Shown piece after piece: positions 9,244 through 15,795 of a DNA stretch of 35,385 bases; the stretch's first letter is position 1, and each line of letters begins with the position of its first letter. The position numbers and the translations under genes were made by a program. Origin of the DNA: Akkermansia sp. (GTDB lineage Bacteria; Verrucomicrobiota; Verrucomicrobiia; Verrucomicrobiales; Akkermansiaceae); contig JAFXCP010000031.1 of assembly GCA_017521405.1 (NCBI GenBank), positions 1-35,385 of the forward strand. Reading direction: 5' to 3'. The notes beneath the pieces are model-generated. The model worked only from the letters and a program-made list of their open reading frames with translations. It did not search any database and was not told the origin of the DNA.

Positions 9244-11193
9244 TTAGGCCTCCGGGATTTCCCCGTCCGGGTAAATCAGTTCCTTGGGGGCGGGGGCAAT
9301 GGATTTGATGGTCATCATCACTTGGTCGCCGCCGATTTCTACCGGCAGGCGCAGCTTGTCGCCTACCTTGTGGCCCAGCAGCTTGGCTCCCAGCTTGGAG
9401 CTGTAGGCGATGATTCCTTTCTCCGGGTCGGAATCCCATGCGCCCAGAATGGTGTAGACCACTTCTTTGCCCTTGGCTGTGGAGAAGGTAACCTGAGTGC
9501 CCATGCCGGTTTGCTCGCAGGTGGCGCCGCTAAAGTCCGTGGGCTCTGCTTGAGAGAGCAGGCGGGAAAGCTCCAAGGAGCGGCGCATGAGTACTTGGCG
9601 TGTGGCTTTGGCATCTTGGTAGCCACCGTTCTCGCGAAGGTCGCCTTCCGCACGGGTGATTTCCAAATCGTGTTTGTTTTTGGGGATGCGTACGTTGATG
9701 ATGTCCTCGTACTCTGCCTTGCGGGCAGCGTAGGAGCGCAGGGAAACGTACATGTTCTGCTTTTCCTTGCCCGCTACGCGGTTGAGGGCAATTTCCTGCA
9801 AACCGGGGTGTACTTTCATCATGTTGGCCAGCAGGAGGTTGCGGTCCAAATCCGGCAGTACGGAGGAATCGTACAGGGACTTGGCAAAGGGACGTGCCTC
9901 CGGCTCGGAAAGTCCGCTCACCAAGTCGGGTGCCAAATCCTTGTCGTCCAGCAGGAGGTTGCGCAGGCGCAGAGCGCGGTTGGGTCCACCTTCCGCACTG
10001 TCTCGCTCGATGGCACTCATAATGGCTGCACCCAGCGGCATGCGGGCTTTATCCACCACTTCCTTGGCTACGCCGTTGCGCTCGCGGCATACCCAGATGA
10101 GTACATCCGGGCTGAGGCTTTGGCGGGAGATGCCGTTGATGATATCGTTGAAGAGCTGTTCTTTGGCACCCCGGGAGATGATGTATTCCGCAGCCGGAGT
10201 GGTTACCTTGGCTCCGCCGAAGAGGAAGATATTTGTGGCATATGCCAGCCAGCTATCGCCCATGGCCTCGGGCAGGGCTTCGTATACCTTGCGCTGGCGG
10301 ATGGCGGAAAGCTCGCCGATGTAGCCCACGATTTCCTCGGAGGTGATACTGGAGAGCTTATCGGCCAAGGTGGTGATGTTCTCTACCCCGGCGGCGGTAA
10401 GGGCGGCATCCATAGCGGCTTTGTCCTCTGCCGTGGGGGCAAGGTTTTCCAGCAGCTCATCGCGGATGATGATGATTTCCAGCACGTGCTGAGGTTCTGT
10501 GTGCCCTCGGGATACATCGTCCTCCATGGCTTTGACTAAGCGGGCGAGGATGTTGAATTCTCCCTTGAGTACATCCGTGCGAGTCTGGTCCAGAATGCGT
10601 ACGCAGGCTTCCAGAGTGGTGGCATCACTGTAATCGTCCAGCAGTGCCTCTGCTGCTGAGGTGGCTTTGCGGAGTACGATGTATTCTCCGCGTTTGGTGG
10701 GGAGACGGAAGCCGGGATTATCGCGCATGGCGGCGCGGGCTTTCTCCCACCAGGCTTTCCAGTTTTCCTCCGGGATGACGCGTCCGCTCAGGAAGTTTTC
10801 CATATCCTCCGGCAGCATGGGGAGTACATCGTTAATGCCCTCGCGCAGGGAAATATTGTGGGTGAGTACCATGCGGATGAAGTCCAGCATGGTGTCCTTG
10901 CCTTCTGCTTGGGCGGCGCAGGTGGCCGGGTCCTCAAAGCAGGTGACGAGGAAATGCTCCGCCGGAACGGGCGTGAGCTGGTTGAAGGCGAGCTTGAGGC
11001 CGAGGATGTGCCCCGTCTTGCCTTTTTCAAAATCAATCTTAATCTTGTTCTTTGCCAAGGACCAGGCAACTACTTTGCCTACGCCCATGTCCTGGTGCAT
11101 TACATATTTACCGGGAGAGAACTGGTCGAGTCGGGCCGCAAAATCGGCCGGAATCTTGCTCGCTTTCACTAGTTTTTCAAGGTCGGCATGCAT
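9244..11193 (-). CDS. greA: GreA-type transcript cleavage factor with long N-terminal extension
   Basis: The last ~150 residues are GreA/GreB: an antiparallel coiled coil with the family's acidic-tip region (EITRAEGDLRENGGYQDAK) and an FKBP-like C-terminal domain (AYSSKLGAKLLGHKVGDKL). Gre factors enter the RNA polymerase secondary channel and stimulate cleavage of backtracked RNA. In front are about 490 extra residues: a small beta domain with FSPGKYVMHQDMGVGKVVAW, then helical repeats with no family I can name. Standard GreA is ~158 residues; Chlamydia GreA is also about 700, so this is likely a PVC-wide architecture. The first ATG (11205) overlaps the -10 box, so the second in-frame ATG at 11193 is used (649 residues). 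Confidence 0.88.
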   Translation of the reverse strand: MHADLEKLVKASKIPADFAARLDQFSPGKYVMHQDMGVGKVVAWSLAKNKIKIDFEKGKTGHILGLKLAFNQLTPVPAEHFLVTCFEDPATCAAQAEGKDTMLDFIRMVLTHNISLREGINDVLPMLPEDMENFLSGRVIPEENWKAWWEKARAAMRDNPGFRLPTKRGEYIVLRKATSAAEALLDDYSDATTLEACVRILDQTRTDVLKGEFNILARLVKAMEDDVSRGHTEPQHVLEIIIIRDELLENLAPTAEDKAAMDAALTAAGVENITTLADKLSSITSEEIVGYIGELSAIRQRKVYEALPEAMGDSWLAYATNIFLFGGAKVTTPAAEYIISRGAKEQLFNDIINGISRQSLSPDVLIWVCRERNGVAKEVVDKARMPLGAAIMSAIERDSAEGGPNRALRLRNLLLDDKDLAPDLVSGLSEPEARPFAKSLYDSSVLPDLDRNLLLANMMKVHPGLQEIALNRVAGKEKQNMYVSLRSYAARKAEYEDIINVRIPKNKHDLEITRAEGDLRENGGYQDAKATRQVLMRRSLELSRLLSQAEPTDFSGATCEQTGMGTQVTFSTAKGKEVVYTILGAWDSDPEKGIIAYSSKLGAKLLGHKVGDKLRLPVEIGGDQVMMTIKSIAPAPKELIYPDGEIPEA

Positions 11194-11203
11194 ACTTAGG
11201 AAC

Positions 11204-11231
11204 ATGATACCACACCTTCTGTCAAGGTCAA
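11204..11231 (-). promoter_or_regulatory. Promoter of greA
   Basis: TTGACC (11226-11231), 16-base spacer, TATCAT (11204-11209) on the minus strand, the same spacing and -10 as the rpmH promoter. The -10 ends 10 bases before the ATG at 11193 and overlaps the alternative ATG at 11205. Confidence 0.65.
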
Positions 11232-12615: not shown

Positions 12616-12795
12616 TTACTTTTCCTTATGGGGTGCCTCGTTGGCTTTCTTGCGAGAGCAGCAGCAGGAGCAGCCTCCATCGCAGGTGCCGCCGCCGCCA
12701 TGGCAGCAGTCGCCGCTTTTCTTTTTGCGGATGATGGCGCAGATTGCCCATGCGGCTAAGCCTAAGAGAATCAGAATAAGGATGAGGTCTTGCAT
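12616..12795 (-). CDS. FeoB-associated Cys-rich membrane peptide
   Basis: The 59-residue product has one N-terminal membrane helix (residues 4-22), a basic RKKK stop-transfer stretch, then a short tail holding seven cysteines with a His and many Gly (CCHGGGGTC ... CSCCC), and a Lys-rich end. This is the layout of the small Cys-rich proteins found beside feoB (FeoB-associated family; analogous in position to FeoC). The cysteines could bind ferrous iron, an iron-sulfur cluster or another metal on the cytoplasmic side. The frame is open further upstream to 13080, but only from the ATG at 12795 is it sensible. It is 47 bases after feoB. Confidence 0.88.
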   Translation of the reverse strand: MQDLILILILLGLAAWAICAIIRKKKSGDCCHGGGGTCDGGCSCCCSRKKANEAPHKEK

Positions 12796-12842: not shown

Positions 12843-15524
12843 TTACTTGAGGGCGTTCGGGTTGCGGCGCAGTAGCATGTATGCAATGAGCAGTGCGATG
12901 CCGCATGCGGCAATTTGCCCGGTGCCGAAGCTGCCTTGCGTTACCCATGTGCCAAGCTGGTAAGTGAGCAGGGAGACCACATATGCCCATACGCACATGT
13001 AGCCAATGGCAAACCATGTCCAGCGGGCGCTGTTCATCTCGCGGCGGATAGCGCCGCATGCTGCAAAGCAGGGGGCACACAGCAGGTTGAAGAGCATGAA
13101 GGAGAGCCCCGCCATGCCGGAGAATGTGCCGGTGGCCGCCACGGCCTTGGCAATGCCGTATGTCTCGTCCTCCTCTTCTTCTTCCTCGACTTCATCCCCG
13201 GCAGGAAGGGGGGCACGCAGCTCCGCATGGGTGCCTTGCCATGCAGCCATGGCAAGGGCGGAGAGGGCGTTGCACTTGGGCAGCGTGGCCGTGCGGGGCA
13301 GTTCGTCTTCTGCCGCTTCGGCTGCTTCCCCGGTAGCGGGGTCGTCCTGCTCGGGGGCAGCGGTACCGTACAGCACACCAAAGGTGCCCACCACGTTTTC
13401 CTTGGCAATCAGGCCGGTGACTGTGGCCACGGCAGGTTTCCAATCGCCCCAGCCAAGGGGGGAGAAGAGGGGGGCTACATAGCGGCCCGTATCGGCCAGC
13501 ATGCTTTGCTCCACGGCTTCTTCATTCTCGGCGGTGCTCAGGAAGTTCATGCTCCAGTTGTAATTACTGGTAAACCAGATGAGGGCGGAGGCCAAAAAGA
13601 TAACGGTACCGGCTTTTTGCACGAAGGCTTGGCAGCGCTGCATGGCACGCAGGTTGATGGTGGCTCCGGCGGGCATGTGGTAGGCGGGAAGTTCCATTAC
13701 AAAGGGGGTATAGCCCCCGGCAAACATGTGCGTCTTGCGGAGCATGAGTCCACCCAGAATGACGGAGGCAATGCCGCCAAAATAGGCAATGGTGGCGATG
13801 GTGGCATCTTGCCCGGCAATGGCTCCCAGCAGGGCAATGATGGGCAGCTTGGCGCCGCAGGGAATGAATCCGGTAAGCATGATGCTCATGCGGCGGTCTT
13901 TCTCATTCTCGATGGTGCGGGTGGCCATAATGCCGGGTACACCACAACCCATGGCTACCATGAGGGGGATGAAGGATTTGCCGGAAAGACCAATAGCGCG
14001 GAAGATGCGATCCATCATGAATGCCACGCGAGCCATATACCCGCAATCCTCCAGCAGGGAAAGCAGCAGAAACAGTACGGCCATTTGCGGCAGGAAGCCC
14101 AGCACGGCACCTACCCCGGCTACAATGCCGTTCGTGATGAGGTCATTCAACTGGGGGCTGCAATCCAAGCAAAGAGTGCCGAGAAGACCGGCGCCAAAGC
14201 TCACTGCACTAAGCACGATGAACCACAGCAGGTATTCCCGGCGATTGGCACGCCCGCTCAGGCGCATGCCTCGGAAGGAAATGCCGAGGGGGCGGAGCCC
14301 ATAGTTGTTGATGCGATTTTGCCCGGGGAGTAGTAAGCAGGCGCCCAGTAGCACGGCGTTTGCCCCCAGCAGTAGCCACATAAGAATTTGGTGCAGCACA
14401 TCGGGAAGGTGCGGGCACACATATTCCAGAAGGAAGGGTGCCAGTGCCAGATACAGCCATGCTCCGCTACGCCCTAAATCGTGTAGACGCCGCAGGGTTG
14501 CCGGAAAGATGAGGCACATGGCCAGTACGCTGCTGAACATGGTCATGCTTTCCACGCCGGCGGCTTCGTTGCCGATGAAGCCGGCCAGCCAGCCGCCTAC
14601 CACCGGCCCAAACAGAACATCGTTTGCCCAGCCTGTTCCCCAATCCCCCACAGTGGTGATGGAGAGGTAGTAGATGCCCCACATAATGAGGACAAAGATG
14701 CCCAAGCCCAGTACTCGGTGGGTCAGGAGGGCATCCATGCGATTGGAGAAATTTTCTGTTTGGCTGGCGCGTTTCAATACCTGCGGTACAAAGGCTGTGA
14801 TGGCATCGTAACGCCCGGAGGCGATGATGGAGGCTATATCGTCCTCCAGCTCTTTCTCCAGCTGCAGGCGTTCGGTTTCGATGTTGTGGCGGTCCGTTAC
14901 GCTGCGTTCGGCCAGCATGTCGGTATCGTTCTCCAACATCTTAACGGCTTGCAGTCGATTACAGTTGTAACGGGCACAAAGATTTTCCAGCACGTTTTCC
15001 ACTGCCGGGGGGTAGCAAAGGTGTTTCGGTGCTGCCGGCAGCACCTCGGACGTCATGGCTTCCACCAGTTCTTGGAGCCCCGTCTGGTGCAGGGCACTGA
15101 TGGGCAGCACGGGGCAACCCAGTTCTCGGCTCAGGGCTGCGGTGTCGATGCTGTCTCCCCGCTGGTTCAGCAGGTCAATCATATTAAGTGCCACGATGAT
15201 GGGTAAGCCTGTTTCCAGCAGTTGGCTGGTCAGATACAGGTTGCGCTCCAGATTGGTGGCATCCACCACGTTGATAACGATATCCGGCTTCTCATTCAGA
15301 AGATAGTGCCGCGTGACTACTTCTTCCGGCGTGTAGGGGGAGAGGGAGTAAATGCCGGGTAAATCCTGAATCTCTACCTCCGGTTGGTCCACCAGGCGCC
15401 CGCTTTTGCGTTCTACGGTTACGCCCGGCCAGTTGCCCACGTATTGGCTGGCCCCGGTCAGTTCGTTGAATAGGCTGGTCTTGCCGCTGTTCGGATTCCC
15501 TGCCAGTGCAATTTTACGTTTCAT
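12843..15524 (-). CDS. feoB: Ferrous iron transporter FeoB with inserted DUF805-like block
   Basis: FeoB imports Fe2+ through the inner membrane. Residues 1-~170 are the G domain: GNPNSGKT (9-16), DLPG (54-57), NMID (114-117). The membrane part shows both Gate motifs (CGVPGIM near 527, CGAKLPI near 556). At 893 residues it is longer than the usual ~700-780. One cause is a block at about 329-453 between the first and second core helices with four extra hydrophobic helices and DUF805-type motifs in reversed order: RRLHDLGRSG, LPGQNRINNYG, then SGRANRREYLLWF. The second is an acidic linker (EEEEEEDE near 780-787) before the last helices. The ATG at 15524 is chosen because the G1 motif follows directly; the upstream extension to 15605 overlaps feoA. 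Confidence 0.95.
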   Translation of the reverse strand: MKRKIALAGNPNSGKTSLFNELTGASQYVGNWPGVTVERKSGRLVDQPEVEIQDLPGIYSLSPYTPEEVVTRHYLLNEKPDIVINVVDATNLERNLYLTSQLLETGLPIIVALNMIDLLNQRGDSIDTAALSRELGCPVLPISALHQTGLQELVEAMTSEVLPAAPKHLCYPPAVENVLENLCARYNCNRLQAVKMLENDTDMLAERSVTDRHNIETERLQLEKELEDDIASIIASGRYDAITAFVPQVLKRASQTENFSNRMDALLTHRVLGLGIFVLIMWGIYYLSITTVGDWGTGWANDVLFGPVVGGWLAGFIGNEAAGVESMTMFSSVLAMCLIFPATLRRLHDLGRSGAWLYLALAPFLLEYVCPHLPDVLHQILMWLLLGANAVLLGACLLLPGQNRINNYGLRPLGISFRGMRLSGRANRREYLLWFIVLSAVSFGAGLLGTLCLDCSPQLNDLITNGIVAGVGAVLGFLPQMAVLFLLLSLLEDCGYMARVAFMMDRIFRAIGLSGKSFIPLMVAMGCGVPGIMATRTIENEKDRRMSIMLTGFIPCGAKLPIIALLGAIAGQDATIATIAYFGGIASVILGGLMLRKTHMFAGGYTPFVMELPAYHMPAGATINLRAMQRCQAFVQKAGTVIFLASALIWFTSNYNWSMNFLSTAENEEAVEQSMLADTGRYVAPLFSPLGWGDWKPAVATVTGLIAKENVVGTFGVLYGTAAPEQDDPATGEAAEAAEDELPRTATLPKCNALSALAMAAWQGTHAELRAPLPAGDEVEEEEEEDETYGIAKAVAATGTFSGMAGLSFMLFNLLCAPCFAACGAIRREMNSARWTWFAIGYMCVWAYVVSLLTYQLGTWVTQGSFGTGQIAACGIALLIAYMLLRRNPNALK
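14220..14492 (-). other. DUF805-like insertion within feoB, halves in swapped order
   Basis: This part of feoB encodes residues ~345-435. It holds the two diagnostic halves of DUF805 membrane proteins. In free-standing DUF805 (for example E. coli YhaH) the GRARRKEYW half comes first and the RRLHD...NRFGPDP half last. Here RRLHDLGRSG...NNYGLRP precedes SGRANRREYLLWF. Base composition and codon use look like the rest of feoB. Confidence 0.7.
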
Positions 15525-15555: not shown

Positions 15556-15795
15556 TTATGCCACAACGACGCATGCAGCCTCCGCCTTCCGCAAGGATAA
15601 TTCAAATCCGCGGACAGTTACTTCCAAGGGGTCGCCCAAAGGTGCCATCTTGCGCACTTTCACCTCGGCTCCTTTGGTGAGCCCCATATCCAAAATACGC
15701 TGGCGTAGGGGACCATCTCCCTCAACTTTGACTACTTTAACTGCGGTACCCACCTTCACCTGATTGAGTTTCAGGTCCTGAGAATTTTGATTCAT
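15556..15795 (-). CDS. feoA: Ferrous iron transport protein FeoA
   Basis: FeoA is a small SH3-like cytosolic protein that supports FeoB. The 79-residue product has the family pattern: a start of about 12 polar residues, then GTAVKVVKVEGDGPLRQRILDMGLTKGAEVKVRKMAPLGDPLEV, where the MGL.KG and APLGDP elements are diagnostic, and a hydrophobic VVVA end. It is the first gene of the operon, 31 bases before feoB, behind a near-consensus promoter and two palindromes. Confidence 0.95.
   Translation of the reverse strand: MNQNSQDLKLNQVKVGTAVKVVKVEGDGPLRQRILDMGLTKGAEVKVRKMAPLGDPLEVTVRGFELSLRKAEAACVVVA

Follow-up and report, generated by a model that had tools for sequence, protein, structure and literature searches.

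Why does the FeoB protein of an Akkermansia species carry both signature halves of a DUF805 membrane protein, and why do they stand in the reverse of their usual order? The question arises from feoB on contig JAFXCP010000031.1 of the Akkermansia sp. assembly GCA_017521405.1 (positions 1 to 35,385), a stretch of 35,385 nucleotides that was analysed as a whole and is called the window below. This FeoB presumably transports Fe(II), as its family and its gene neighbours suggest. From the letters of the window alone, the original prediction had described a block of about 125 extra residues with four helices, lying between the first and second core helices of FeoB and resembling a DUF805 protein with its halves swapped. 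The position between the first two core helices stands, and the insert is almost certainly a complete, circularly permuted DUF805 domain. Its identity and permutation, as well as its distribution and conservation, can be read from the sequences compared here. The following elements are concerned, in coordinates of the window.

12843 to 15524, minus strand: feoB, 893 residues, with GTPase, Gate and FeoB_C domains and the DUF805 insert
14166 to 14570, minus strand: the insert, residues about 319-453, a permuted DUF805 domain with helix order 2-3-4-1, in two stretches of reversed order
14463 to 14492, minus strand: RRLHDLGRSG, DUF805 signature, residues 345-354, in a predicted cytoplasmic turn
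14298 to 14330, minus strand: LPGQNRINNYG, C-terminal signature of DUF805, residues 399-409
14220 to 14258, minus strand: SGRANRREYLLWF, N-terminal signature of DUF805, residues 423-435, placed after the C-terminal signature

All three motifs named in the original prediction were located in this minus-strand frame. The span of 14220 to 14492 given for the block runs from motif to motif only, and the insert itself extends over about 14166-14570.

Evidence for a rotated DUF805 domain

The FeoB protein gave Pfam matches to FeoB_N (E 7.8e-66), Gate (E 1.5e-33, two stretches) and FeoB_C (E 1.2e-12), together with a match to DUF805 in two stretches (E 2.6e-11, 44.4 bits in Pfam-A against a cut-off of 25.7). 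With a 170-residue piece that includes the insert, the DUF805 match rose to 56 bits (E 6.3e-15), again in two stretches, and the assignment to this family is thereby upheld. A DUF805 search of the genome from which the window comes returned five matches: two lie within feoB and the other three in genes that neighbour one another on a different contig. The first feoB stretch covers profile positions 40-110 at window 14298-14570 (36.9 bits, above the cut-off) and the second positions 3-66 at window 14073-14264 (22.9 bits, below it), and their order along FeoB is the reverse of the profile order. The three neighbouring genes (L145, C27:44500-48000) include two with N-terminal extensions, which presumably resemble GYF-type and zinc-ribbon segments.

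When the insert was rewritten with its N-half before its C-half, a single DUF805 stretch was obtained that covers positions 3-110 of the 111 in the profile, with 62.8 bits and E 5e-17. Each half was also recovered in a search of its own, the C-half at profile positions 42-110 (40.2 bits) and the N-half at positions 3-31 (19.9 bits, E 0.001, which is below the family cut-off of 25.7), and together the two pieces lack just positions 32-41 within 3-110. Profile pieces 3-31 and 42-110 in rotated order are what is expected from a circular permutation cut in the loop between helices 1 and 2. Thus, the reversed order reported in the original prediction is correct, and circular permutation is a better description of it than a swap of two halves. 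The correspondence was also seen with profiles built from 53 insert-bearing FeoBs (51 with a short insert and two of a long-linker form), which found their counterparts in canonical DUF805 proteins: helix 1 for the N-half profile, with up to 22.5 bits, and helices 2-4 for the C-half profile, with up to 28.0 bits. Likewise, the same DUF805 elements occur once each, with RRLHD at 345, G..N..G at 401-409 and GR..R at 424-428, in a rotated order and not in the canonical one.

The size of the insert was obtained from orthologues that lack it. The aligned region comprises 250 residues in 31 insert-bearing FeoBs and 118 in two insert-free Akkermansia orthologues (L039 and L040), which align on both flanks, and the net insert is consequently 132 residues instead of about 125. 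By another measure of length, 23-27 residues were counted in 11 insert-free Akkermansia FeoBs and about 156 in the 51 short inserts; in outgroup-type FeoBs the loop has 9-22 residues in 20 of 29 sequences, its length being unreadable in the other nine. A third, long-linker form is found in three genomes (G004, G059 and G071) and reaches 348 residues in the aligned region of G004, the extra length being placed in the turn that links DUF805 helix 3 to helix 4. In two long-linker FeoBs the segment that holds this turn has 110 and 115 residues, of which 21 and 22 are Asp or Glu. The long-linker proteins of G004 and G059 (L038, L107 and L113) have an acidic loop in place of the Cys/His turn of the short inserts that is described below, and the G004 form is about 98 residues longer. 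In the one-contig genome G071 the long-linker feoB is broken into two reading frames, which encode 834 and 263 residues (L125 and L136).

Predicted membrane sidedness and fold

The elements on which the predicted topology rests are given below, with helix limits taken from the structural model of the insert.

14478 to 14555, minus strand: insert helix 1 (DUF805 helix 2), residues 324-349, running from outside to inside as predicted by charges
14418 to 14462, minus strand: insert helix 2 (DUF805 helix 3), residues 355-369
14391 to 14426, minus strand: E367-x-x-C370-P371-H372-x5-H378, a candidate metal site in a predicted outward turn, specific to the insert clade
14331 to 14402, minus strand: insert helix 3 (DUF805 helix 4), residues 375-398
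14175 to 14243, minus strand: insert helix 4 (DUF805 helix 1), residues 428-450, running from inside to outside as predicted by charges
14160 to 14162, minus strand: C455, a conserved FeoB residue just past the insert, on the predicted outward side

The AlphaFold2 model of the insert, made with nine relatives, has four helices at residues 324-349, 355-369, 375-398 and 428-450, a mean predicted local distance difference test score (pLDDT) of 80.1 and a predicted template-modelling score of 0.69, with five models ranging from 68.0 to 80.1 in mean pLDDT. One relative, L068, was taken in with its inner part only; its translated start, on a contig of a metagenome-assembled genome (MAG), is presumably something like an adapter remnant. 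On this prediction the insert probably folds as one domain. A sequence search of the PDB with the insert profile, carried to E 1, returned nothing, and neither this search nor the fold search of the PDB brought up a DUF805 chain; matches named FeoB stopped by query residue 260, no solved membrane part of FeoB being found there by sequence.

The sidedness was predicted from the distribution of positive charges. Across 51 insert FeoBs, the mean number of Lys plus Arg is 0.08 before the insert, 0.02 in the turn 370-379 and 0.04 after the insert, all of which are predicted to face outward, and 2.18 in the RRLHD turn and 6.90 in the joining stretch 399-430, both predicted to face inward. The latter stretch, opened by LPGQNRINNYG, is predicted to be cytoplasmic and links the old C-terminal end of the DUF805 domain with its old N-terminal end. 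Ten canonical DUF805 domains readable by a motif script, half of which represent a single domain of one family of tandem proteins, carry 0-1 Lys or Arg in the loop between helices 1 and 2, against 2-7 at their ends and in the RRLHD turn, so both ends are apparently inside. Core helix 1 of FeoB comes after the cytoplasmic GTPase part, and its far end is therefore outside. A canonical DUF805 domain with its ends inside would consequently not fit a FeoB loop that lies outside, whereas a domain rotated by an odd number of helices does. The insert is also predicted to keep the cytoplasmic signatures and the four helices of the canonical copies, and the even number of added helices would preserve the topology of the remaining FeoB, which agrees with what the original prediction had argued. 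From the charge pattern and the helix prediction, the swapped order is probably explained by membrane sidedness, with both ends of the insert outside and the signatures in the cytoplasm. The topology of FeoB is treated in a figure legend of PMC11920956.

Distribution, history and selection

Full-length matches to the insert profile were found in 59 of 77 Akkermansia genomes, in 56 of them with the short insert and in three with the long linker. The remaining 18 comprise 11 genomes with an insert-free FeoB orthologue and seven, several of them incomplete, in which no orthologue was found. Order-wide, 53 of 387 genomes, in one of 50 genera, matched the profile at E 1e-12 or better; at this threshold none of 317 genomes outside Akkermansia did so, the 317 being the 387 minus the 70 Akkermansia counted among the genomes listed. 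Across the phylum (387 genomes) there was no full-length match outside Akkermansia either, and among genomes of other genera of the same family 15 of 15 had a FeoB-like match and none of 15 matched the insert profile. Phyla beyond Verrucomicrobiota were covered by a pattern scan only, which returned at least nine loci, from at least eight Akkermansia MAGs and at least one Verrucomicrobiales MAG. The survey of Verrucomicrobiota FeoBs that had been proposed thus placed the insert in a majority of Akkermansia genomes, and not in all FeoB proteins. As separate observations, one genome (G087) has two insert-bearing FeoB copies (C58 and C17), and in two genus genomes (G028 and G031, 98% and 93% complete) the search found neither an Akkermansia-type FeoB orthologue nor FeoA.

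All FeoBs of this type in Akkermansia group together as a single clade. Within it, the insert-bearing (support 100/99), insert-free (98/99) and long-linker (100/100) proteins each constitute a clade, in a tree for which 20 of the 51 insert sequences were used along with both long-linker ones, 6 of the 11 insert-free and 11 of the 29 of outgroup type. The union of the insert and long-linker proteins as one clade was not rejected (approximately unbiased test, p-AU 0.35). A single gain of the insert may be supposed, and one gain plus one loss is likewise compatible with the trees.

Selection was estimated from 31 of the 51 insert sequences, for which 111 of 465 pairs had a synonymous distance (dS) between 0.05 and 1.0. 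In the close pairs (non-synonymous distance, dN, below 0.1; n = 11), dN/dS was 0.06-0.22. Thirteen residues (R345, R346, L347, H348, D349, G354, W356, Y358, P363, G401, N406, G409 and R425) are invariant in all 53 insert-bearing FeoBs, and G424 and R428 are kept in 52 and 51 of them, respectively. The outward turn is similarly conserved, with E367, P371, H372 and H378 in all 51 short inserts and C370 in 50. No comparable pattern of Cys/His pairs was found in 12 canonical DUF805 domains by a simple motif test, six of the 12 being from one tandem protein family. The Cys at position 455, just past the insert, is shared by 50 of the 51 FeoBs with a short insert, by both long-linker FeoBs and by all 11 Akkermansia FeoBs without an insert.

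Origin, possible roles and significance

The explanation that we favour, with some caution, is that a permuted DUF805 domain was inserted in an outward loop of FeoB and kept as an accessory module beside the pore. A DUF805 permutant (2-3-4-1) would have entered FeoB in an ancestor of most Akkermansia, at the outward-facing loop that joins the first two core helices, and purifying selection would have kept it there afterwards. A cut in the outward DUF805 helix 1-2 loop, combined with cytoplasmic joining of the old ends, would yield a cassette with both ends outside, and the simplest genetic route to it would be a C-half-plus-N-half piece taken from a tandem DUF805 repeat. Three genomes with the insert (G004, G059 and G071) and three without it (G017, G064 and G066) encode proteins in which two DUF805 domains share one frame, and Pfam confirmed two DUF805 stretches in one such tandem protein. 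The module would probably lie beside the FeoB pore, where the outward E-x-x-C-P-H-x5-H turn may be positioned at the mouth of the channel so as to capture or sense Fe(II), and the invariant cytoplasmic face of DUF805 could couple to the GTPase or to the FeoA side. The tandem-repeat donor, the single gain, the place beside the pore, the metal site and the coupling are proposals. An outward Cys and His next to the channel do suggest Fe(II) capture or sensing; that the insert captures or senses extracytoplasmic Fe(II) is put forward tentatively, and a structural role for the turn is possible. It is equally tentative that a natural and recent permutation, which inverted the sidedness of the ends for insertion in a loop, was combined with an outward Cys/His site that makes FeoB capture or sense iron in gut Akkermansia.

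Several observations weigh against this explanation. The full-length FeoB model (seven relatives) was poor, with a mean pLDDT of 49, and lends no support to a placement beside the pore, and when the insert model was compared by fold with BFVD and the PDB, nothing came out under E 0.001. The second DUF805 stretch in feoB reaches profile position 66 and hence runs into ordinary FeoB sequence, so that the boundary is soft and the two ranges overlap. No single donor emerged, the N-half and the C-half matching best to different DUF805 proteins. Gain and loss are left undecided by the trees, in which the branching of the three FeoB groups is not settled: the best tree joins the long-linker with the insert-free proteins (72/42), as did a FastTree run (0.922) from which 8 of 77 rows had been dropped beforehand (fragments, duplicates and the broken G071 gene), and this grouping speaks against one gain without loss. 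Eleven Akkermansia genomes keep a FeoB orthologue without the insert. Over all 111 usable pairs dN/dS extends from 0.06 to 1.03, with one value above 1 and dS near saturation, and sequence variation is higher in the insert than in the core of FeoB (mean column consensus 0.669 vs 0.885). As the Cys/His turn is missing from both long-linker FeoBs that were examined, the metal idea leaves some inserts unexplained. Finally, a search of open-licence PubMed Central turned up no function for DUF805, and a search within the main text of PMC9427106 gave no hit.

The gene neighbourhood also bears on the role of the insert.

15556 to 15795, minus strand: feoA, 79 residues, directly upstream of feoB; FeoA match, E 3.4e-21
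12616 to 12795, minus strand: Cys-rich FeoB-associated gene, 59 residues; PF12669 match, E 1.8e-5 and 25.4 bits, just below the cut-off of 27

These two genes and feoB make up the cluster, with mutS past feoA on the opposite strand and a gene for an OprB-type porin downstream. The insert as a substitute for FeoA was ruled out, since feoA adjoins feoB in the window and FeoA is present in 39 of 41 genus genomes. A tandem feoA pair stands beside feoB in G004 and G059 (long-linker) and in G015 and G017 (insert-free); the insert-bearing genomes covered by the same search have a single feoA there, and G029 and G062 hold a further copy on a different contig. Elsewhere in FeoB, residues about 720-790 (window about 13155-13365) are acidic and variable and include a glutamate run, with a mean column consensus of 0.545 over 51 FeoBs. 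A minus-strand protein of 653 residues at 9244-11205 has C-terminal GreA/GreB domains and, towards its N-terminal end, a weak match of CarD type.

The flanking feoA and Cys-rich genes would suit a partner-binding or regulatory module, as the original prediction had also envisaged, which docks another membrane protein (a second FeoB, a free DUF805 protein or the Cys-rich one) or touches the GTPase or FeoA with its invariant face in the cytoplasm, the Cys/His turn then being structural. The cytoplasmic signatures are among the least variable residues of the insert (RRLHD in 53 of 53), and 40 of 41 genus genomes have DUF805 matches, those within FeoB being counted too. However, these signature residues typify DUF805 generally and may serve folding alone, and the 11 insert-free orthologues tell against such a role, which we consider rather unlikely. 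Similarly unlikely, in our estimate, is a tolerated passenger, that is, a topology-compatible domain that was inserted once and has been held by folding constraint with no function gained. The persistence of insert-free orthologues (11 of 70 genomes with an orthologue) and the lower consensus of the insert speak for a passenger; its retention in 59 genomes with invariant signatures speaks against it, as does the addition, in 50 of 51, of a Cys/His motif that is seemingly unneeded for DUF805 folding, being absent from the 12 canonical domains. Two DUF805 fragments of different origins that form no common bundle, in place of one permuted domain, would account for halves that match best to different DUF805 proteins, and a piece from the junction of a tandem repeat would draw its halves from two repeats. 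As the halves are complementary in the profile and reorder into one continuous match, and as a four-helix unit is predicted, this is improbable. Ordinary FeoB helices with a chance resemblance, or an assembly or binning error, can be dismissed, as the insert-free orthologues skip the region (250 vs 118 residues) and its residues do not align to their helices, the DUF805 match has 56 bits against a cut-off of 25.7, and the insert is present in 59 genomes. Neither outcome named as refuting the original prediction was obtained, each half having a DUF805 match, that of the N-half below the cut-off, and the residues lying apart from ordinary FeoB helices in the alignment.

Compared with DUF805 (PF05656), the permuted domain in FeoB retains both profile pieces, the RRLHD, G..N..G and GR..R elements, four predicted helices and predicted cytoplasmic signatures; it differs in its 2-3-4-1 order, in ends predicted to be outside, in its location within another membrane protein and in the outward E-x-x-C-P-H-x5-H turn. 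The host protein has the GTPase, Gate and FeoB_C domains of its family (PF02421, PF07670 and PF07664) and an adjoining feoA, and departs from that family in about 132 extra residues with four extra helices after core helix 1 and in the variable acidic region at about 720-790. A parallel is provided by VKOR and DsbB, likewise four-helix membrane bundles related by circular permutation. In 2015 this pair, of very distant sequence, was presented as the first instance of such a rearrangement among helical membrane proteins, for which tandem duplication followed by loss of outer helices was proposed (PMC4555120). According to that source two helices shift there (ABCD to CDAB), the ends stay on the same side and the products are separate enzymes. 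In FeoB, by contrast, the shift is of a single helix (ABCD to BCDA) and would take the ends to the other side, the product lies within a transporter and canonical copies are still found in the same genome as the permuted one. FeoA-FeoB fusions are similar in that FeoB has gained an extra domain, often in gut bacteria; as described in PMC8980893, that domain is soluble and N-terminal, whereas here it is internal and in the membrane. No literature joining DUF805 and FeoB was found in open-licence PubMed Central. The transporter and the domain are known, as is the kind of rearrangement, from the published case of VKOR and DsbB, and their combination as a permuted DUF805 domain inside FeoB appears to be new.

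The case suggests a topology rule, namely that an odd helix shift puts both ends of a domain on the opposite side of the membrane. Since one genus holds the permuted copy, orthologues without the insert and, in the genome of the permuted copy, canonical relatives, one can test directly in what order the changes took place, whether this rule holds and how iron uptake is affected. It also ties DUF805 to a transporter with measurable activity in prominent gut bacteria, which would provide a functional handle on the DUF805 family.

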